Below are positions 50,042-62,584 of a stretch of 64,000 nucleotides of DNA, piece by piece. The notes under the pieces were generated by a model, which worked only from the letters and a program-made list of their open reading frames with translations, made no database searches and was not told where the DNA came from. Location of the stretch: NCBI GenBank assembly GCA_001874305.1, contig MPCU01000003.1, positions 496,001 through 560,000 on the forward strand. The letters are read 5' to 3'. Source of the DNA: Bacteriovorax sp. MedPE-SWde. Its GTDB lineage: Bacteria > Bdellovibrionota > Bacteriovoracia > Bacteriovoracales > Bacteriovoracaceae. The stretch's first letter is position 1, and the number at the start of each line of letters is the position of its first letter. Position numbers and translations under genes: made by a program.

Positions 50042-50470
50042 TTAGTCTAAATGACATATATGTTCATTTACAGTTTTAAAAATTTCAAACGAGCATCGAT
50101 AGCTCTCTCCATATATTACTTTCTTACCGTCTTGTTTGATATAGCGCTTAAGATTACGTGCTGATTGGAAATCTCCACAATAGCCTTGCTTTATCTTTCC
50201 TATGTATTTCTTGTATACACCATTAGTAAAACGAGCCGTTGAAAGATCTAAGGATACTTCTCTTACTCCAATATCCCATCCATCAATTTTAGCATCATGA
50301 ATAATGGATACAACATTTTCGTCAACCATTACTTCACAGTTACTACCTGAAGCAACTTGTTCTCCATTTAGTGTTTGTTCTGAATAGCTACCTTTACCTT
50401 CAAAATTAAAAGTAGCGATAGCATTAGTTGTAATTAAAAGAGTAATTCCAATAAGCATTTTCTTCATTCT
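50042..50470 (-). CDS. Small exported protein, left member of regulator module 1
   Basis: The frame is open for another 207 bases upstream, but the real start is the ATG at 50470: GGGAG lies just before it and a signal peptide follows (MKKMLIGITLLITTNAIA). The mature 120 residues are strand-rich with four cysteines (SNCEVM, GYCGDF, YRCSFE, HICHLD) that could form two disulphides. No family is recognised. It faces away from a TIGR02147-like regulator, the same arrangement as at 56.2-58.2 kb. Confidence 0.7.
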   Translation of the reverse strand, partial: RMKKMLIGITLLITTNAIATFNFEGKGSYSEQTLNGEQVASGSNCEVMVDENVVSIIHDAKIDGWDIGVREVSLDLSTARFTNGVYKKYIGKIKQGYCGDFQSARNLKRYIKQDGKKVIYGESYRCSFEIFKTVNEHICHLD

Positions 50471-50545
50471 TTGCTCCCTTGTTTCTTGTTGTTTTGTTGA
50501 GTACGTTATTCCACTGATTGGAGTTCTGTTCCAGTTTTTCTGGCC

Positions 50546-50568
50546 ATATATGTAACAATAATATATGT
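50546..50568. repeat. Direct ATATATGT repeat in the divergent promoter region
   Basis: ATATATGT occurs at 50546-50553 and 50561-50568, a 15-base period, between the exported-protein gene and the regulator gene of module 1. It could be a pair of regulator sites. Confidence 0.3.
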
Positions 50569-50600
50569 CATTTTGGAATATGATGTGCGATAATGGGTAC

Positions 50601-51602
50601 ATGGATATACAATATATTGAAATTATTAAGGATCTACTTGTAGCTATCAGGGGAAAGAGAAGCCAGGCAAAACTCAATGACTTACTTGGCTATGACTATA
50701 ATCAAGTCTCTAGGTGGGAAACGGGCGCTCGTAGAATTCACTGGGATGACTTTCTTAGAATATGTGATGTTTGCAATGTAAAACTGATCGAGGCGATTGA
50801 GAGTCAATTTGCATTTACCATTGACCTAAACGAAAGCTCTGCTTCAATTATATCCTTGCTAACTTCAAACTTAAAACAACAGGAAATCGCTAAGATAGTC
50901 GAGACATCACGCTATACTATTAGTCGTTGGCTTAAAGGAGAAACAACACCATATCTTGAACACATATTAAAGCTCTTAGAATTCCACTCAGAGATGTCCC
51001 TTGTTCTAGATCTTACTGTGGGTGTTGAAAAACTGCCAAGCTTACAATTGAGCATGGTCGAAAAAATGCAAAATACTGAGGCCTTTAATGAAAACTTAAA
51101 TATTACAAAAGTGTTAGCTTGCTTTGAACTTTCTCAATACAAAGAACTAGACTCTCATATTCCAGGCTTTATATCTGACCTTGTGGGAGTAGCACTTTCA
51201 GAGGAAAATGAAACGATAGAGCTAGCAGAAAAATTAGGAATGATAAAACTTGAGCTTGGAAAGTATGTTTTAACGGATGATAAAACAATGAACCTAGCTT
51301 TTAATCCTAAGAGAAGTATGAAGATAAAAAAGTTAGCTGCTATGAAAGCAGTAGGAGTTATGGATAATTTCTTAGATGATATTAAAGTATCTCGAAATAA
51401 CAGACTTACATATCAATTTACAACAATAAGTACAGATGCTCTTGTACAAGTGAATGAAGAAATTTCAAAATTTCATAATAGTATTAATAATATCCTAATG
51501 TCTGACAACAAACCACATGATAACCTTTTATCATTGAGTGTAAATTTGGTTGATGAATTAGAAGTTTTAGAAAAAAAGAATAATATGGAGAAAACACAAT
51601 GA
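50601..51602 (+). CDS. TIGR02147-like HTH regulator, module 1
   Basis: Two helix-turn-helix segments in tandem: SQAKLNDLLGYDYNQVSRWETGARRIHWDDFLRIC (about residues 20-55) and LKQQEIAKIVETSRYTISRWLKGETTPYLEHILKLLE (about 90-130). The rest, including AEKLGMIKLELGKYVLTDD and the late segment RLTYQFTTISTDALVQVNEEISKFHNSI, matches the TIGR02147/DUF4423-like proteins common in Bdellovibrionota and Fibrobacter. ATG 50601 (MDIQYIEIIKDLL) is preferred over 50565. Its stop overlaps the start of the next exported-protein gene (ATGA), so they are coupled. Confidence 0.75.
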   Translation: MDIQYIEIIKDLLVAIRGKRSQAKLNDLLGYDYNQVSRWETGARRIHWDDFLRICDVCNVKLIEAIESQFAFTIDLNESSASIISLLTSNLKQQEIAKIVETSRYTISRWLKGETTPYLEHILKLLEFHSEMSLVLDLTVGVEKLPSLQLSMVEKMQNTEAFNENLNITKVLACFELSQYKELDSHIPGFISDLVGVALSEENETIELAEKLGMIKLELGKYVLTDDKTMNLAFNPKRSMKIKKLAAMKAVGVMDNFLDDIKVSRNNRLTYQFTTISTDALVQVNEEISKFHNSINNILMSDNKPHDNLLSLSVNLVDELEVLEKKNNMEKTQ

Positions 51603-52054
51603 AAAAAATACTATTAACTTTAGCATTTATACCTAGTCTTGCACTGTCTTCGTCTTGCCTTGATCTTAACGGTACCTGGAAAGGACTTTGTGATCGAGAT
51701 GGATCAGTAAAGGAAGAATCTATTACGATTAGACAAAAAGGTTGTGGGCAGATAACTTTCTATAGCATAGATTATAAAATTGGAATGCCATATGAGCAAA
51801 GACATGAAAATACATATGAGCGCATGACTAATATCTATAACTTATACTGGGGTAAAGATGGGCAGAGCTTATTCTTTGACGTTGATCGTATTCGCTGGAT
51901 GAAGCACAAGAATATTGTTTCAACTGGAGAAGGGGTAGGGGTTATACGAGTAAGTGGTGATGAAATGAGCTATTCTCGTTCTTATTCAGCCAGAAGTCGT
52001 GAAGGTGTCTATTCTAAATCTTCTCGTAAGTGTGATTTCGTAAAAGAGAACTAG
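51599..52054 (+). CDS. Small exported protein, right member of regulator module 1
   Basis: A signal peptide (MKKILLTLAFIPSLALSSS) leads a 130-residue mature protein beginning CLDLNGTWKGLCDRDGS, a lipocalin-like or calycin-like opening (NGTWKG), with further cysteines at QKGCGQ and RKCDF. The pattern and strand content suggest a small beta-barrel, but that is a weak inference. The start overlaps the regulator stop by four bases. The equivalent place at 57.7 kb holds another exported protein. Confidence 0.7.
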   Translation: MKKILLTLAFIPSLALSSSCLDLNGTWKGLCDRDGSVKEESITIRQKGCGQITFYSIDYKIGMPYEQRHENTYERMTNIYNLYWGKDGQSLFFDVDRIRWMKHKNIVSTGEGVGVIRVSGDEMSYSRSYSARSREGVYSKSSRKCDFVKEN

Positions 52055-52056
52055 GT

Positions 52057-53172
52057 CTATAGAGCACCATTAAGAAATTTTTCTGTGAACTTACCTCTTA
52101 CAGCGAACTTGTAAATAAGTACTGAAAACGTAATAGCAAGTAGGGTTACAAGTGGGAACTTGATAACCCAACTAAGGTTCGCTGGCGCCATCATAATTTG
52201 TAGGACAATGATAATTGGCAAATGAATTAAGTATATAAAGTAAGATCCTTCAACAAAGTAAGTAACTTTCTTATTCGCTTTCTTAAACAAATGCTTGAAT
52301 AAGAAAATTTGTCCAAGAACCAATGACCATGTGCTTATTACCGCTAGAGGTGTGAAGGTCCAAGCATCAGCTTTAAGATTAAAAATATCCAAATGAGAAT
52401 CAACTTCAATAAAAGACCTCGCCATAGCACAAGTGCAACCGATAACTATAAGACATATTGATTTTGATTTAGATAAAGTAAAATCTTTGAACTTAAATAG
52501 CATCCAACCAAAGAAATAGAAAATTCCATAATAAGCAGATATCGATATGGTTGGATACATATGAAATGGAGCATCCACCCAGTGAGACTTCATAAGGAAG
52601 TAGCTGAGGTAGGTTAAAAACATCGAAAATATAGTTAAAGACTTGATGTTGTTGAACTTGAAGATTTTAACCTTACTTAATGGAACAGATAATAATGAAA
52701 AGAGGTAGAGATACATTAGGAACCAAAGGTGTCCCCAGTTTGGATCATGTCTAAATTTATCTTGAGTAGGTCCTGCAAATAAATTATCTACTACATAATT
52801 AGATATAAATTTGTAGTCAAAGCTAAACACCTTGGCAGGGTTCTCCATTGCTAACCAAACAAGCTTAAGGGGAATGATTAGAAGCAAAAAGAAAACTAGC
52901 ATTGGGTAGAGAAGACGCTTTGTTCTTTTTTTTAGAAAGTTGCCTTTGTTAATTATTAAATGAGAAAAGAAGCCACTTATAATAAAGAACAATGGCATTC
53001 TAAATAATCTAAGAAAATCCAACATTATATCTATTATGTAAGAGTGACTCATATCCTTAATCACCCAGTGATATTCGATTTCACCATAAGCAAGACAAGC
53101 ATGTAAGGGAATTCCTAGAAGTACCGCTATCGCACGTAGAAAATCAAAGTGATGATATCTTTCTTTCTTCAC
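52057..53172 (-). CDS. Acyltransferase 3 family membrane protein
   Basis: Integral membrane acyltransferase with about ten transmembrane helices. The family start is YHHFDFLRAIAVLLGIPLHACLAYG, with the conserved His of the first helix end, and LRLFRMPLFFIISGFFS follows. It most resembles the OpgC/OafA-like group that O-acylates surface glycans or lipids. GTG 53172 is preferred to the GTG at 53208: AGGA lies eight bases upstream and the codon overlaps the stop of the previous gene (TAGTG). It is the last gene of a leftward desaturase-P450 operon, so its acyl donor or acceptor may be a lipid made there. Confidence 0.83.
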   Translation of the reverse strand: MKKERYHHFDFLRAIAVLLGIPLHACLAYGEIEYHWVIKDMSHSYIIDIMLDFLRLFRMPLFFIISGFFSHLIINKGNFLKKRTKRLLYPMLVFFLLLIIPLKLVWLAMENPAKVFSFDYKFISNYVVDNLFAGPTQDKFRHDPNWGHLWFLMYLYLFSLLSVPLSKVKIFKFNNIKSLTIFSMFLTYLSYFLMKSHWVDAPFHMYPTISISAYYGIFYFFGWMLFKFKDFTLSKSKSICLIVIGCTCAMARSFIEVDSHLDIFNLKADAWTFTPLAVISTWSLVLGQIFLFKHLFKKANKKVTYFVEGSYFIYLIHLPIIIVLQIMMAPANLSWVIKFPLVTLLAITFSVLIYKFAVRGKFTEKFLNGAL

Positions 53173-53792
53173 TAGAATTGTCCTATGATGATAAAGAGAT
53201 GTATCCACAATACGATATTAATCATCTCAGCACGTGATGGTTTTAAAAATATTGGACCAAGTATGATTAATAGAGCATAGAGTAGCTGATTTATTCCTAT
53301 ATATATTGATGGTGATGTAAGTATGTAGACGAATCCCATTAGAGATGCAGATAATGTGAATAAAATTCCAATTGGAAAATCGTTTCGACCCTTAATAAAT
53401 TGAAAATAGATCAGTCCACAAAGATATAAAGTACATCCAATCACCAATGTTACAACTGCATAGTTCGCCTGTAAGTTTGAAACTATATAGAATCGACCAA
53501 TAATGACTGGTGCAAAGGCCAAGTATGCAAGAAGGCCAAGTGTATTTCTTTTAAAGTATCGTACTGTTAGCATGCCTTTGTTTAAAGAAGACATATTCTC
53601 ATAGGCCAAGAAAATCTGACCGACCGCTTCCGAGAGAAAGAGGATAGAGAATAATACATTTGATAGAGCACTATAGAGATATACACCTAAGACTAAGAAG
53701 ATAATTGCTGAGATAAACTGAACTTGGTAGGTCTGTTTTTTGACCTCTAGTCCTGTAGATCTTTCTTCGACCTTTTTAAGTAACTTTAGCAT
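53172..53792 (-). CDS. Membrane protein of the desaturase-P450 operon
   Basis: A 206-residue protein with about six hydrophobic segments (FISAIIFLVLGVYLYSAL, VLFSILFLSEAVGQIFLAY, LGLLAYLAFAPVIIGRFYIV, AVVTLVIGCTLYLCGLIYF, IGILFTLSASLMGFVYIL, LLYALLIILGPIFL) and a basic cytoplasmic N-terminus. I recognise no family. It overlaps the P450 gene by seven bases and the acyltransferase start by one base, so it is a fixed part of the operon and may be an accessory or electron-transfer-linked membrane component. Confidence 0.65.
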   Translation of the reverse strand: MLKLLKKVEERSTGLEVKKQTYQVQFISAIIFLVLGVYLYSALSNVLFSILFLSEAVGQIFLAYENMSSLNKGMLTVRYFKRNTLGLLAYLAFAPVIIGRFYIVSNLQANYAVVTLVIGCTLYLCGLIYFQFIKGRNDFPIGILFTLSASLMGFVYILTSPSIYIGINQLLYALLIILGPIFLKPSRAEMINIVLWIHLFIIIGQF

Positions 53793-55168
53793 GGTAACTC
53801 TGTGAGCTTTATAGGCATACCATCTAGTGGCTTCAGACTCACGTGTGATACGGCCTTTGGAAGTTCTTTCGTCGCAAGTTCTAAATCATAAGACTTAATA
53901 ATCTCTGAGACTATTATTGCGACTTCCACTAAAGAAAAGTTTTCTCCTACACATCTACGTTCTCCCTTGGAAAAAGGAAGGAAGTAATCAAGTCTGTTTA
54001 CATCTACGCCAGTAAAACGCTCTGGCTTAAAACTTAAGGCATTAGGCCAAAACCTCTCACTTCGATGAATATTCCATACTGGTATTACGACACTTGTGTT
54101 TTTTGGGATTTTGTAGAAATCAAAATTGTCTTCCACGAGATTTCTTCTTGAAGACATTGGAATGGCCGTATAAAGTCTCATTCCTTCTAAGATTGCACAA
54201 TATAGCTTAGGGTGAGTTGTTTTAAATTTGATAGATTCAATTGGTGTTTGAGAATCCTCTATTTCTCTACGGATCTCATTTTGAATTTTCTTATGCTTTG
54301 AAAGTAATCCCAATACCCAACTTAGAGTATTTGAAGTCGTTTCATAACCTGCAATTAATAGAGTGATCACTTCATCTTTAAGTTCTTTATCACTTAATGA
54401 TTCACCTGTTTCAGGGTTCTTCGCATGTACTAATCGTTGAAGAATACTTGATGTTTCATGAGGAGGACTTTGTTTTTCGTTCTCTATTAAACGTTCCACT
54501 ATTCGAGAAAGGTTTCCATTATGAAAGTGAAACAACCTATTTTTCTTAGTTGGTACCCAATATGGAGTAGGGAATAATTCAAACATATGGTCATGTGCCA
54601 TTTTAGAAGTATAGAGAACTGCATCATCAACAATCTTGGCATCTTCTTTTGAGAGATCACTTCCCAATAAGGTCTTTCCTGCTATAGCAAATGTTAAATT
54701 TCTCATTTCTATAGAGAAATCTAGTTGTACTTTAGAGTTATCTCGCCATGATTGAATTGTTGAGTCAGTTAAATCTTTTATTGTTTTTGAAAAACCAATA
54801 ATAGGCTTTGATCCAAGCTCTTTGGATACAATAATACGACTTCTAAGCCATGACTTTCGATCATTGTTAGTGACAAGACCTTCTCCCATCACTACCTTCA
54901 TTTCATCAGTTTGCTCACCCTTAACGTAAATTTTATTCTTATCACCGAGAACTTGCTTTATAAGATCTGTTCTATAAATGATTACAGTATTTATAGGCCA
55001 ACCATATCTTACTACTTCTCCGTAGTTTTCCTCCGTGCTCTCAAGTGCACCAAGACTATCTCGTTTAAAATGTAGCATGAGTTTAATAAAGTTAAACCCA
55101 GAAGGACCTGGGATATGATTGAGTCCTGAAAGACTTATAAAGTTACGTAGTGAATTAATATACTTCAT
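53786..55168 (-). CDS. Cytochrome P450
   Basis: Heme monooxygenase of 460 residues with all diagnostic motifs: I-helix AGYETT at 273-278 (oxygen-activation Thr), ExxR at Glu328-Arg331, PERF at 382-385 and the heme loop FSKGERRCVG with the axial Cys406. The sequence resembles CYP102/CYP4-like fatty-acid or CYP120-type enzymes more than soluble CYP101-type, and there is no fused reductase. It starts one base after the desaturase stop. The neighbours suggest an acyl or lipid substrate; redox partners are not in the window. Confidence 0.92.
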   Translation of the reverse strand: MKYINSLRNFISLSGLNHIPGPSGFNFIKLMLHFKRDSLGALESTEENYGEVVRYGWPINTVIIYRTDLIKQVLGDKNKIYVKGEQTDEMKVVMGEGLVTNNDRKSWLRSRIIVSKELGSKPIIGFSKTIKDLTDSTIQSWRDNSKVQLDFSIEMRNLTFAIAGKTLLGSDLSKEDAKIVDDAVLYTSKMAHDHMFELFPTPYWVPTKKNRLFHFHNGNLSRIVERLIENEKQSPPHETSSILQRLVHAKNPETGESLSDKELKDEVITLLIAGYETTSNTLSWVLGLLSKHKKIQNEIRREIEDSQTPIESIKFKTTHPKLYCAILEGMRLYTAIPMSSRRNLVEDNFDFYKIPKNTSVVIPVWNIHRSERFWPNALSFKPERFTGVDVNRLDYFLPFSKGERRCVGENFSLVEVAIIVSEIIKSYDLELATKELPKAVSHVSLKPLDGMPIKLTELPC

Positions 55169-55169
55169 A

Positions 55170-56087
55170 TTACCTGATATTTTTTAGACTAATTTTCTCT
55201 TCCCAAACTCTATCTAAGTTGAAGTAGCCCTTCAAGCTAAATGAGGAGGAGTTCTGCTTAAGCTTTACGGTTGGTGCAATATTATCACTTTTAACTGTTA
55301 GCAGTCTGTCCTTTTTACTCTTTAGCTTTCGTGGATCAAAGAGGCTTAAGTTTTCATGGTGATTCTTATGGAAATAACCACCCATTGTTACAAAATTTGC
55401 AAGACGATAATAGAGAGTATGATTCATATTGAAAACTTCGACTGAACCATCTTCATGATCTCTATGACATACGTAGTTTATGTGTGCAAGGATAGCGATA
55501 TTACTAAAAACAGCGGGTAGATAAAATGCAAGAAAGAGGCCCGGTCCAAATATTAGAAACCAAATAGCGATTCTTAGAATAAGATTGATATGAAAGATTA
55601 CAGTCTGTATTTTAAGTATCTTTTGGTAAGACTCGGTGTCTTTATGAATGTCAGATAAGTATTCCTTTGTATGCTCAATCATGTATTTATTAGGTGATGT
55701 TAAATATTTAAAGAACGTCATTCCTCGTGGAGAGACAGGGTCATACTTATGATCAGAGTAGAGGTGGTGCAAGGTATGCACTAGTATAAAATTATTAAAG
55801 CCATAACCAACAAAGTGGCCGACAAATTCTCCGACTATTCTATTAAGTGGTCCTTTGCTTAAATTTTGATGACCTGTTTTATGAAGAAAAGCTGCAACTA
55901 ACCAACCAAATGGAATAGATAGAAACAGAGGAATAAAGTAGAGATAGCTAAAATCAAAGCTGATATTTCTTGGAATAACTAAAAGAATAGCAAGCAGAGT
56001 CAAAAGGAGCGTGAGGTCCTTTAGATAGTCCTTAAGTAAAAACTTAGGATCAGTTTTAATATTTTTGAATACTATGCTTGGTTTCAT
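55170..56087 (-). CDS. Membrane fatty-acid desaturase family protein
   Basis: Di-iron membrane enzyme with three histidine boxes: HKTGH at 69-73, HTLHH at 104-108 and HKNHH at 240-244. Four transmembrane helices lie between them (for example LLLTLLAILLVIPR, YFIPLFLSIPFGWLVAAFL, IAIWFLIFGPGLFLAFYL). It could desaturate or hydroxylate an acyl chain or a carotenoid/sterol-like substrate; the second box spacing fits the FA_desaturase Pfam family. It is the first gene of a four-gene leftward operon with P450, a membrane protein and an acyltransferase, with gaps or overlaps of no more than seven bases. Confidence 0.88.
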   Translation of the reverse strand: MKPSIVFKNIKTDPKFLLKDYLKDLTLLLTLLAILLVIPRNISFDFSYLYFIPLFLSIPFGWLVAAFLHKTGHQNLSKGPLNRIVGEFVGHFVGYGFNNFILVHTLHHLYSDHKYDPVSPRGMTFFKYLTSPNKYMIEHTKEYLSDIHKDTESYQKILKIQTVIFHINLILRIAIWFLIFGPGLFLAFYLPAVFSNIAILAHINYVCHRDHEDGSVEVFNMNHTLYYRLANFVTMGGYFHKNHHENLSLFDPRKLKSKKDRLLTVKSDNIAPTVKLKQNSSSFSLKGYFNLDRVWEEKISLKNIR

Positions 56088-56187
56088 GATCTATTGGTAT
56101 CATGAAAATATATTGAGATGTTGTGAAGTGAAAATAATACAATGCGTTAAAGTGAGGGGAGAGCTGTAAATACTGGAAACTATAAGA

Positions 56188-56205
56188 GAGGACCCGAGGG
56201 TCCTC
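56188..56205 (-). terminator. Hairpin after the left exported gene of module 2
   Basis: GAGGACCC and GGGTCCTC form a 7-8 bp GC-rich stem with a very short loop, followed on the minus strand by TCTCTTATAG. The U-tract is weak, but it lies directly after the stop codon. Confidence 0.5.
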
Positions 56206-56213
56206 ATATAAAA

Positions 56214-56732
56214 CTACTTTCTTAAGATTGAAACCATGTGGCTTTTGCTTCCCATTCTTTCAGTAGAGATCTCGAATAGCTCGTTAGCTAGTCTTTTGAA
56301 CTTACTTCTTTTTGGGAAAAGTCCTTTTCTAGTGTTAAGAAGAGCAATTGATTCAGCTGATAACTCGTCTAGAGAAACGTTAAATGTTACGAACTCCATT
56401 TTCTTTCCGTTAGTAACTTCTCCATCTCTACCAATTGTTCCAGTAGGTCTGTATCCAGCGATAACTTGAGCAACCTTGATTGTCTTAACAGTTACTTCGC
56501 TACAGTCATGTCTACGGCTTCTACGGTTACCATATCTTCCATTGTCAGAACATGTCTTAGAAATGATCGTCTTAGAAAGAGTTTCTTTAGCTAGTTTAAA
56601 ATCAAAGATACTTAGGCTTCTAAGTGATAGTGACTTAACAACCTTTTCAGTTTTGAAAACGTCATAGTTAATAGTTTTTGCGCTTGCAAGTGAACTTACA
56701 ACTAGTGCTAGTGCGATTAGTACTTTTTTCAT
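56214..56732 (-). CDS. Exported protein, left member of regulator module 2
   Basis: A signal peptide (MKKVLIALALVVSSLASA) is followed by 150 mature residues. The middle has two cysteines around a basic stretch (TCSDNGRYGNRRSRRHDC). The C-terminal part, ELSAESIALLNTRKGLFPKRSKFKRLANELFEI, resembles the exported protein at 57752-58195 (TIDRLEKRKKFNLFKSKYKKLARKIFIV), so the two exported proteins on either side of the regulator look related. No family name is known. GGAG lies before the ATG. Confidence 0.7.
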   Translation of the reverse strand: MKKVLIALALVVSSLASAKTINYDVFKTEKVVKSLSLRSLSIFDFKLAKETLSKTIISKTCSDNGRYGNRRSRRHDCSEVTVKTIKVAQVIAGYRPTGTIGRDGEVTNGKKMEFVTFNVSLDELSAESIALLNTRKGLFPKRSKFKRLANELFEISTERMGSKSHMVSILRK

Positions 56733-56819
56733 GTGATCTCCTTATGATTGTTGTTGGAGAAATTCTGGCAGATGCTAAATAAAAAATAAATTCTGAGAAG
56801 CATATTTTCTATTTTAGTT

Positions 56820-56864
56820 GGACAAGTGTCCGTTATTGTCTAGTCAGGGCGAGATTATTGGACA
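56820..56864. promoter_or_regulatory. GGACA motifs in the module 2 divergent region
   Basis: GGACA-AG-TGTCC (56820-56831) is a short palindrome, and a further GGACA lies at 56860-56864. Both sit between the divergent exported-protein and regulator genes and may be binding sites for the regulator. Confidence 0.3.
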
Positions 56865-56967
56865 TTTTCATAAATTTGTCTCATGTGTATAGCTAAGTAC
56901 TTGTTATCCTATCAGGTAGAAGTCACAATTCTTGTTTAAGTTTAAATTTTATGGAATAAGAAACTCA

Positions 56968-57771
56968 ATGCCAGAACTAACAAAACTTAATGATTCAAAA
57001 GGTCTTTTGAAAGAGCAACTCGTCTCTGATTTAAATACCTATTTTTCGAATTATAAAGACTATTCTCTTGCTCAAAAATACTTGGCAACAAATTCTGGTG
57101 TTCACCTAAAGACAATTCAGAGACTTTGCCGAAAAGAAAATAATCCAGGGCACACAACACTGTTAAAGATATATAAGGTTCTCCTTGGAGAGAGTGATTA
57201 TCAAAAACTATTCTCTCTTCTTCCAGAGATTATCCGAAATACATTAAAAGAAGATTCGATTCAAAATTTATCTAGAGATATTAATTACTCTCTAGAGATT
57301 AAGAGAGAAATTCTTGCAGATAGAGTCTTTTGTGAAATCTATTTCTTAGTTGATGCGGGAAATACATCTATTGAGCTAATACAGTTTAAGTTTGGTGAGC
57401 ATGGTCTTGATACTGTAAAGAGAATGATAGACCTAAAGGCGTTACGTTATAATAGCGAGGGGCTTTTAGAGCTTGGTAGTGAAAGAGCTGAAATCGATCC
57501 TCAAGTTATAAAACATTCTGGCCTCACTCTATCGGAAAAATACTCTAAGACAAAAGATTGTGAGGTTAAAGGTGAGAACTTTATTGGCCTTTATGTCGAA
57601 TCATTACCAGAAAATATTTATCAAGAGTGGCTTCAAATTGATAAGGATGCGTTTATTAAGAAAGCCGAATTAGCGAAGAAGCATCGAGTTGCGGCCGGCG
57701 GAAAGAAAGTTTTTACATATATGACAACAGATACGTTTATAAAGGAAAAGAATGAAAATATTAATCATTAG
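56968..57771 (+). CDS. TIGR02147-like HTH regulator, module 2
   Basis: An HTH segment (YSLAQKYLATNSGVHLKTIQRLCRKENNPGHTTLLKIYKVLLG, residues about 30-75) is followed by a middle domain with IELIQFKFGEHGLDTVKRMIDLKALRYNSEGLLELG, which parallels LGMIKLELGKYVLTDD in the module 1 regulator. The C-terminal helical part (GLYVESLPENIYQEWLQIDKDAFIKKAELAKKH) fits the same TIGR02147-like group. ATG 56968 (MPELTKLNDSKG) is preferred to the TTG at 56932; neither has a strong ribosome-binding site. It overlaps the next exported-protein gene by 20 bases. Confidence 0.7.
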   Translation: MPELTKLNDSKGLLKEQLVSDLNTYFSNYKDYSLAQKYLATNSGVHLKTIQRLCRKENNPGHTTLLKIYKVLLGESDYQKLFSLLPEIIRNTLKEDSIQNLSRDINYSLEIKREILADRVFCEIYFLVDAGNTSIELIQFKFGEHGLDTVKRMIDLKALRYNSEGLLELGSERAEIDPQVIKHSGLTLSEKYSKTKDCEVKGENFIGLYVESLPENIYQEWLQIDKDAFIKKAELAKKHRVAAGGKKVFTYMTTDTFIKEKNENINH

Positions 57772-58195
57772 TTTATTAAATATATTCATATCTCTGTCTG
57801 TCATTGCTGGCGGTGATTATGGTGGTGGACCAAAGGTCATAACATTAAATGCGCTAGACTTTAAAGTGAATGTTGCCGATATCAAACTTAATAAGAAGTT
57901 AGATAAAGTTGATCTTAAAGTACATTATCAAAAGAGAAGATACGAAAATGTATACCATTTAAGTGAGAGAAAACAGAATGAACTTAGAAGCGGAAAGCTA
58001 ACTGCTATAACGTTCTCTTATGATAAAGAACTTTTTCATCAAGACACAATTGATAGACTCGAAAAAAGAAAGAAGTTTAACTTATTTAAATCAAAGTATA
58101 AGAAGCTTGCACGTAAGATATTTATTGTTGAAGAAATCAAGAAGCTTGATAAGAAGTCTTCAGAGTCTAGATCATACGAAGTTCGTATGAAGTAG
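57752..58195 (+). CDS. Exported protein, right member of regulator module 2
   Basis: A signal peptide (MKILIISLLNIFISLSVIA) is followed by a Gly-rich mature N-terminus (GGDYGGGPKVITLNALDFKV) and a very basic helical C-terminal half (RLEKRKKFNLFKSKYKKLARKIFIVEEIKKLDKK). The latter resembles the C-terminal part of the exported protein on the other side of the regulator. It is translationally coupled to the regulator by a 20-base overlap. Function is unknown; a cationic secreted protein is all that can be said. Confidence 0.7.
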   Translation: MKILIISLLNIFISLSVIAGGDYGGGPKVITLNALDFKVNVADIKLNKKLDKVDLKVHYQKRRYENVYHLSERKQNELRSGKLTAITFSYDKELFHQDTIDRLEKRKKFNLFKSKYKKLARKIFIVEEIKKLDKKSSESRSYEVRMK

Positions 58196-60382: not shown

Positions 60383-62584
60383 TTATATCTTTGCTTGAAA
60401 GTACTTTTTCTTTGCGACTTGTAGCTTTTCGTAACTTTCAATTAACTTAATATGCTTGTCGATACCTTCTAACTTCATACTTGTTGTCGGTAGACCAAAG
60501 AACCTAACGTCACCAGAAACAGTATCTATGGCATTTTGAAGAGTTTCTTCTCCAAACATACGAGTCATATTTGCTTTATAGTCTGAAAGCTCTAATTCAT
60601 CATCAAGTGTAATATCAAGAACTGTATTTAAAGCTCTGTAATAGCTTCTTCTTTCTGGAGAGTTCTCATTGAAAGTCATGATCATTTCAACGAGTCCTTT
60701 GGCCTCGTCAAACTTCTTAAGTGCTAGGAAGATCATACATTTTAACTCACCAATATTTAACTGACCCCAATTTGAATTTTCATCAAAAGCGATTCCTATT
60801 AGCTCTGAGATAGGAGTGTAGTCATCCATCTCACTTTCTTCTAGATTGTTTACTAAAGTTGAAAGGCCGTCATTATCAAGTTTGTGTAAATTTAAGATAT
60901 CTTCTCTAAATATGATCGCTCTATTGTGGTTATCCCATACAAGATCATCAGCAGAGTAAATCTCAGAATAGTCAGGAACTAATATACGACAAGCACTAGC
61001 TCCGAGCTCTTCATAGTCAGCGATATAGACTTCTTTTTCCATTTGCTTAAGAATGTCCATAAGGTAGTCATTCTCTTGCTGTGTTGTTCCTGAGAAGTCC
61101 CACTCGTTGAATTCATAATCATTTTTATCACTGAAAAACTTCCACGAAATAACTCCTGTAGAGTCAATGAAATGATCAACAATATTATTGTGCTCGCTTA
61201 CAGCAAAGTTGTTAAATGTCGGAGGTGGAACGTCATTCATTCCCTCAAAGCTTCTTCCTTGTAGCAGCTCAGTAAGACTTCTCTCTAGTGCCACTTCAAA
61301 TTTAGGATGTGCTCCAAATGATGCAAAAACACCACCGTTCTTTGGGTTCATCAAAGTAACACACATTACTGGAAATTTACCGCCTAAAGATGCATCTTTA
61401 ATAACGATAGGGAATCCATAAGACTCAAGCTTTTCAATCCCTTCAAGGATCTTTGGATACTTTTCAAGGACACTCTTTGGAACATCTGGAAGTGTTATTT
61501 CCTCTAGAATGATTTTGTTTTTTACGGCACGTTCAAAAATCTCCGAGAGACATTGTACACGTGCTTCATATTTAGTGTTTCCAGCACTCATTCCATTACT
61601 TACAAATAGATTACCAATTAAATTAACTGGAACGTAGACTGTTTCTTGATCAGACTGTCTTGTGTAAGGAATCGCACATATTCCTCTTTCTGTATTTCCA
61701 GAGTTTGTATCAATGAGATGTTCAGCTTTGAGTTCATTCTCAGTATTATAAACTTCAAGAAATCTTTCATCCATCAGTCCTTCTGGGAGTGAGCCATCTG
61801 CACCGGGTTTAAACCATTTCTCATCTGGGTAGTGAACAAAGTCCGAATTTGATATCTCTTCACCTAGGTAGTAATCATTGTAGAAATAGTTATTACTTAT
61901 TCTTTCTAAGTATTCTCCAAGTGCAGAACATAGAGCTGCATCTTTTGTTGCACCTTTTCCGTTTGTAAAACACATTGGTGAGTCCGCGTCTCTAATATGT
62001 ACAGACCATACATTTGGAACTTGGTTTCTCCATGAAGCAATTTCAATCTTAATGCCAAGATTAGTTAAAAGCTCTGTCATATTAACGATAGTGTCTTCAA
62101 GAGATGAGTCTTTTCCTAGAATCATAGTTTGAGAGTTACTATCCGTTTCATAAACTAGACTAGCATCTTTACCAAGAACATTAAGAGTTTCAATTTTAAA
62201 GGCAGGTGACTGTTGAATTGTTTTCTTTACAGTACATCTATCAATAGATCTGAGTATCCCTTCTTTGTCTTTCTCTGAAATACTTTCAGGTAGCTCAACT
62301 TGAATATGGAAGGTTTGATTATATCTATTTTCAGGATCAATAATATTATCTTGGCGTAGTTTAATATCCTCAGTCGGGATACCTCTCGCAATACAATAGA
62401 CTCTAACAAAGTAGGCAGCACAAAGTGCAGAAGAAGCCAGGAAATAGTCAAAGGGGCTAGGAGCAGTTCCATCACCCTTGTATCTAATTGGTTGATCTGT
62501 TTTGATGCTAAAATCGTCGAAGTTAGCTTCAAGCCTTAGGTTCTCTAGAAAGTTTACGTTAATTTGCATAGGAGTTATTAACAT
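60383..62584 (-). CDS. ycaO: OsmC-YcaO fusion protein
   Basis: Residues 1-145 are an OsmC-like domain (DGTAPSPFDYFLASSALCAAYFVRVYCIARG contains its first cysteine). Residues about 200-560 are a YcaO domain with the ATP-binding patterns GEYLERISNNYF and NTKYEARVQCLSEIFERAVK, and FASFGAHPKFEVALERSLTELLQGR. The last 170 residues are a helical YcaO C-terminal extension. YcaO enzymes activate amide backbones with ATP; this fused form occurs in many gammaproteobacteria, and its substrate is unknown. No precursor peptide or partner is adjacent. GGGAGAGG directly before ATG 62584 supports this start. Confidence 0.9.
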   Translation of the reverse strand: MLITPMQINVNFLENLRLEANFDDFSIKTDQPIRYKGDGTAPSPFDYFLASSALCAAYFVRVYCIARGIPTEDIKLRQDNIIDPENRYNQTFHIQVELPESISEKDKEGILRSIDRCTVKKTIQQSPAFKIETLNVLGKDASLVYETDSNSQTMILGKDSSLEDTIVNMTELLTNLGIKIEIASWRNQVPNVWSVHIRDADSPMCFTNGKGATKDAALCSALGEYLERISNNYFYNDYYLGEEISNSDFVHYPDEKWFKPGADGSLPEGLMDERFLEVYNTENELKAEHLIDTNSGNTERGICAIPYTRQSDQETVYVPVNLIGNLFVSNGMSAGNTKYEARVQCLSEIFERAVKNKIILEEITLPDVPKSVLEKYPKILEGIEKLESYGFPIVIKDASLGGKFPVMCVTLMNPKNGGVFASFGAHPKFEVALERSLTELLQGRSFEGMNDVPPPTFNNFAVSEHNNIVDHFIDSTGVISWKFFSDKNDYEFNEWDFSGTTQQENDYLMDILKQMEKEVYIADYEELGASACRILVPDYSEIYSADDLVWDNHNRAIIFREDILNLHKLDNDGLSTLVNNLEESEMDDYTPISELIGIAFDENSNWGQLNIGELKCMIFLALKKFDEAKGLVEMIMTFNENSPERRSYYRALNTVLDITLDDELELSDYKANMTRMFGEETLQNAIDTVSGDVRFFGLPTTSMKLEGIDKHIKLIESYEKLQVAKKKYFQAKI

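Follow-up and report, generated by a model that had tools for sequence, protein, structure and literature searches.

A conserved regulator and exported-protein cassette with operator-like sites, and an unrelated look-alike, in Bacteriovorax sp. MedPE-SWde

Two loci in the genome of Bacteriovorax sp. MedPE-SWde (3.76 Mb) place an HTH regulator between genes for small exported proteins, which raises the question of whether they are copies of one dedicated module. Both lie in the window, by which we mean the whole 64,000-nucleotide stretch of DNA that was analysed. Open reading frames and strands confirmed that the loci at 50.0-52.1 kb (copy 1) and 56.2-58.2 kb (copy 2) have the predicted arrangement in common: one exported gene points leftward, the regulator points rightward, and a second exported gene overlaps the regulator by 4 nt at 51599-51602 in copy 1 and 20 nt at 57752-57771 in copy 2. 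Signal peptides were assigned using a hydropathy rule and not SignalP, with controls handled identically. The features are as follows.

50042..50467, minus strand: copy 1 exported protein P0001, ~141 aa, starting MKKMLIG, lineage-specific
50601..51602, plus strand: copy 1 regulator P0002, tandem HTH_3 domains and a TIGR02147-like C-terminal part
51599..52054, plus strand: copy 1 exported protein P0003, without a glycine tag, 4-nt overlap with P0002
56188..56205, minus strand: terminator-like hairpin 3' of U, by pattern match alone
56214..56732, minus strand: copy 2 exported protein P0004 (U), 172 aa, paralogue of D, without the tag
56820..56831, no strand: proximal operator-like palindrome GGACAAGTGTCC, copy 2, 5' of U
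56860..56880, no strand: distal operator-like palindrome GGACATTTTCATAAATTTGTC, copy 2, 5' of U
56968..57771, plus strand: copy 2 regulator P0005 (R), with HTH, winged helix and C-terminal helix
57752..58195, plus strand: copy 2 exported protein P0006 (D), 147 aa, 20-nt overlap with R
57809..57835, plus strand: glycine-rich tag GGDYGGGPK of D, residues 20-28, at the predicted mature N-terminus

An upstream TTG at 56932 is a possible alternative start for P0005. Between the two loci, all leftward, a cytochrome P450 gene (53786-55168, Pfam E 1.5e-67) adjoins a fatty acid desaturase gene (55170-56087, 2.3e-12) and the same stretch holds an acyltransferase gene (52057-53208, 1.9e-29), a group that may be a lipid-modification operon. 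At 60383-62584 of the window, one 733-aa protein fuses an OsmC domain to YcaO and YcaO_C.

The original prediction described the two loci as a duplicated module. This did not hold, as neither the regulators P0002 and P0005 nor the exported proteins P0001 and P0003 had BLASTP similarity to each other, and the relatives of P0001 and P0003 were found away from such regulators. Copy 2 is a real, conserved cassette and copy 1 is an unrelated look-alike. P0002 carries two HTH_3 domains (Pfam HTH_3, 1.4e-11) and overlaps an exported gene without a tag. P0001 had no Pfam or NCBIfam match and one relative in 59 genomes, which was not beside a regulator, and relatives of P0003 were found in two same-genus genomes only with no regulator next to them. 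An exported gene adjoined 3/21 members of the P0002 regulator family, and in the window's genome an exported ORF followed within 30 nt downstream of 28/347 ORFs (8%). No GACA-N2-TGTC site, of the kind described below for copy 2, was present at copy 1. Because of the 3/21 coupling, the unlinked relatives and the 8% genome-wide background, copy 1 was rejected as a conserved cassette, and a local juxtaposition within the range of chance is its best explanation. The same figures make it likely for copy 1 that a regulator and small exported genes simply fell together, but for copy 2 this is refuted by linkage in 44/46 loci, and that both loci are chance juxtapositions is highly improbable.

Relatives of P0005 were detected in 34/95 genomes of the family, often several in each, with carriers including Halobacteriovorax marinus, Bacteriovorax sp. 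BSW11_IV and DB6_IX and other Bacteriovoracaceae. Coupling was scored with a rule that takes any start codon within range and was applied in the same way to controls. By this rule an exported ORF started between -26 and +15 nt of the R stop in 44/46 homologous loci, and a 45th (L014), which fell narrowly under the signal-peptide threshold, was coupled by eye (45/46). Other ORFs of the same loci were coupled in 1/89 cases. The linkage at copy 2 is conserved and is therefore beyond chance. The second exported gene, U, was present in 32/46 loci (L023 was excluded from the 32 for a frame error) in either a divergent or a tandem upstream position. U and D were paralogous within the cassette, with E values of 1e-27 to 1e-46 in several cassettes. 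This kinship was weaker in the type found in the window (P0004 vs P0006, BLASTP E 5e-4), and both this match and a collinear alignment of P0004, P0006 and their relatives (19 sequences) confirm the C-terminal motif that had been noticed in the two proteins. No further relative of P0004 was found in the window's genome. The proposal of a dedicated regulator and exported-protein cassette, with repeated linkage elsewhere, was thus upheld for the copy 2 family, which also has conserved operator-like sites, but not for the family of copy 1.

D differed from U in a glycine-rich segment directly after the signal peptide, which was present in 42/43 D proteins, 0/32 U proteins and 8/138 control exported proteins. 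Among D proteins of the window's type, pairwise identity was 77% in the tag as compared to 30% in the rest of D and 28% in the signal peptide, and residues G21, G24-G26 and P27 were invariant. An RNA element was considered and is disfavoured, as the tag Gly codons were mixed (GGT 95, GGA 71, GGC 38, GGG 18) and Asp and Pro were kept. Because the Gly codons are mixed, selection on the tag appears to act at the level of the protein.

The region upstream of U contained operator-like sites. In an alignment of intergenic regions from the closest relatives, GACA-N2-TGTC appeared together with a second palindrome ~40 bp off. When all 256 four-base half-sites were scanned, GACA...TGTC ranked first upstream of U, and the palindrome was found there in 27/32 loci vs 0.96 expected (p 1.3e-36, uncorrected for ancestry), with no recognised site at 5/32 U genes. 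These palindromes were often paired ~40 bp apart and the flanks beyond them mostly failed to align. Site pairs 28-52 bp apart were absent from 400 kb of control sequence, made up of stretches from the window's genome, and the exact two-site pattern of the window occurred once in the 3.76 Mb genome, in front of P0004. GACA/TGTC was mostly missing from loci without U and was found between U and R in 0/21 tandem cassettes. U is likely the target, because the sites stand upstream of U and are absent between U and R in tandem loci. Copy 2 thus has a conserved palindrome in the upstream region of the regulator's neighbour, as in a local regulator/operator arrangement, and it would be the most economical inference that R binds these sites. 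The spacing class of the sites clustered by regulator phylogeny, with 14 changes on the tree as compared to 27 after shuffling. Inheritance of the cassette as a whole would equally produce this agreement. If another regulator of exported genes bound GACA/TGTC, R would act elsewhere or on itself alone, which would suit the tandem cassettes in that they carry the sites before U and not before R. We consider this unlikely, however, as the genome has no second instance of the exact two-site pattern, whose only copy lies within the R cassette, and the site spacing tracks the R tree. A separate palindrome, TAACTAGTTA, preceded the regulator at L027, L031, L032 and L126, all four of them tandem cassettes, and had no occurrence in the 400 kb control.

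We propose that copy 2 probably works as a self-contained cassette in which R binds the sites and controls U, and in which D, made together with R, ties R to membrane events. The pair of GACA/TGTC palindromes ahead of U would most likely be bound by R (P0005), which is likely to control U by activation or repression, and a terminator-like hairpin follows the U gene. R and D, whose genes overlap, probably form a co-translated unit apart from U. D, an exported relative of U with the tag at its mature N-terminus, would most likely couple the activity of R to what happens at the membrane or outside it. What the sequences themselves show is that linkage is conserved, that R and D overlap, that U and D are related, that only D has the tag and that the operator-like sites lie before U. 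We suggest more tentatively that D or its tag may feed back on R, which we hold to be possible rather than probable.

Both regulators had been predicted to be TIGR02147-like, and this is defensible at the level of remote homology, though not at that of the family model. Neither P0002 nor P0005 matched the NCBIfam TIGR02147 model (50-bit cut-off) at E<=1, and a search of the window's genome returned 7 matches with neither locus among them. In profile comparisons, the P0002 family aligned to TIGR02147 with 98.3% and E 1.5e-14 (hhalign) and the P0005 family with 92.9% and E 3.7e-7, while reversed controls gave 0.3-9%. The C-terminal part of the P0002 family alone gave 98.4% (reversed control 0.5%), and that of the P0005 family gave 39% vs TIGR02147 and 87% vs the P0002 family. 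These comparisons argue for superfamily-level homology to TIGR02147, firmly for P0002 and with moderate strength for P0005. TIGR02147 members can be numerous, reaching dozens per genome in the phylum, with 37 in one genome.

The search for TIGR02147 genes beside exported genes, as the original prediction had proposed, gave a positive result. Of 56 true TIGR02147 loci drawn from the family and the phylum, 37 adjoined an exported gene as compared to 1/98 other ORFs, and a GN[GPAST] motif stood near the start of 31/37 of these exported partners vs 6/79 control exported proteins. The partners had diverse bodies, and tags were repeated in L106, L107, L108, L126 and L140. From this it seems that the tag accompanies the regulator and not any single exported fold. 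TIGR02147 (Fsuc_second) resembles the two regulators of the window in remote homology and resembles copy 2 in that its members also adjoin exported Gly/GN-tagged genes, but P0005 and P0002 fall below the family model, the copy 2 tag is GGxxGG and not GNG, and no shared operator comparable to GACA/TGTC was found for the TIGR02147 set. The partners at L107 and L108, of 67 and 71 aa, consist of two copies of the motif GxEMGNG / GTEVGNGG and little else.

Two readings of the tag depart from the proposed link between R and the membrane or extend it. The tag could be an export, sorting or assembly signal, with D capping or anchoring a structure built from U, for example, and R merely switching the locus. 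The position of the tag at the mature N-terminus, its strong conservation and the paralogy of U and D, like that of major and minor subunit pairs, are all consistent with this, but similar Gly/GN tags occur on unrelated D bodies whose one common feature is a coupled regulator of TIGR02147 type, which agrees more readily with a tie to the regulator than with a tie to a single structure, and we give such a signal somewhat less than an even chance. The tag could also be recognised by a TIGR02147-superfamily regulator, or by a pathway that includes it, in a phylum-wide unit of co-translated regulator and exported protein, where the N-terminal tag would indicate that export has taken place or would itself come back as a signal. 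The tags on unrelated D bodies and their absence from U paralogues point in this direction, as do a tag type that varies with the regulator family, repeats in several D proteins and the large share that tags take up in the smallest partners (L107 and L108). We regard recognition of this breadth as doubtful.

RRNPP regulators (Rgg/SHP, PlcR/PapR) are cytoplasmic HTH regulators with TPR repeats, adjacent to a gene for an exported product that is a short propeptide. Copy 2 likewise has an HTH regulator beside a gene for an exported product, but D is a 147-aa protein and not a short exported propeptide (a few TIGR02147 partners are of 67-71 aa), and the P0005 model is winged-helix-like where RRNPP proteins have TPR, although a lack of TPR matches is no proof. 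The P0005 model (pLDDT 89) consisted of an HTH, a middle part resembling a winged helix and a helix at the C-terminus, and its matches were to lambda-type HTH and winged-helix proteins only (best Z 9.9), with none at Foldseek E<=0.001. The P0004 model (pLDDT 87) was beta-rich with two helices and had no Foldseek match in the PDB at E<=0.001. A small heat-shock protein was its best VIA-align match, which at Z 4.8 was too weak to assign the fold. Divergent local regulator/target pairs in the LysR-type style place operators between the divergent genes, as copy 2 does with its operator-like palindromes. The copy 2 regulator, however, is of an unrelated family, a second exported paralogue overlaps it, and the family keeps the sites before U even in the tandem layout.

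In the literature searched, no paper treated TIGR02147 by name, an absence that is no proof of novelty, and DUF4423 gave one match, Bd3700 in a Bdellovibrio proteome table (PMC12546842), while other literature searches returned nothing of relevance. A cassette of the copy 2 type is apparently undescribed. With tagged exported partners and, in one clade, a concrete candidate operator and target gene, TIGR02147 function becomes directly testable in predatory bacteria. A second, distant P0005-like cassette was seen in the window's genome (L140, G000:C8:69928-73644), and its D protein carries two GE[TV]TGAGK segments.
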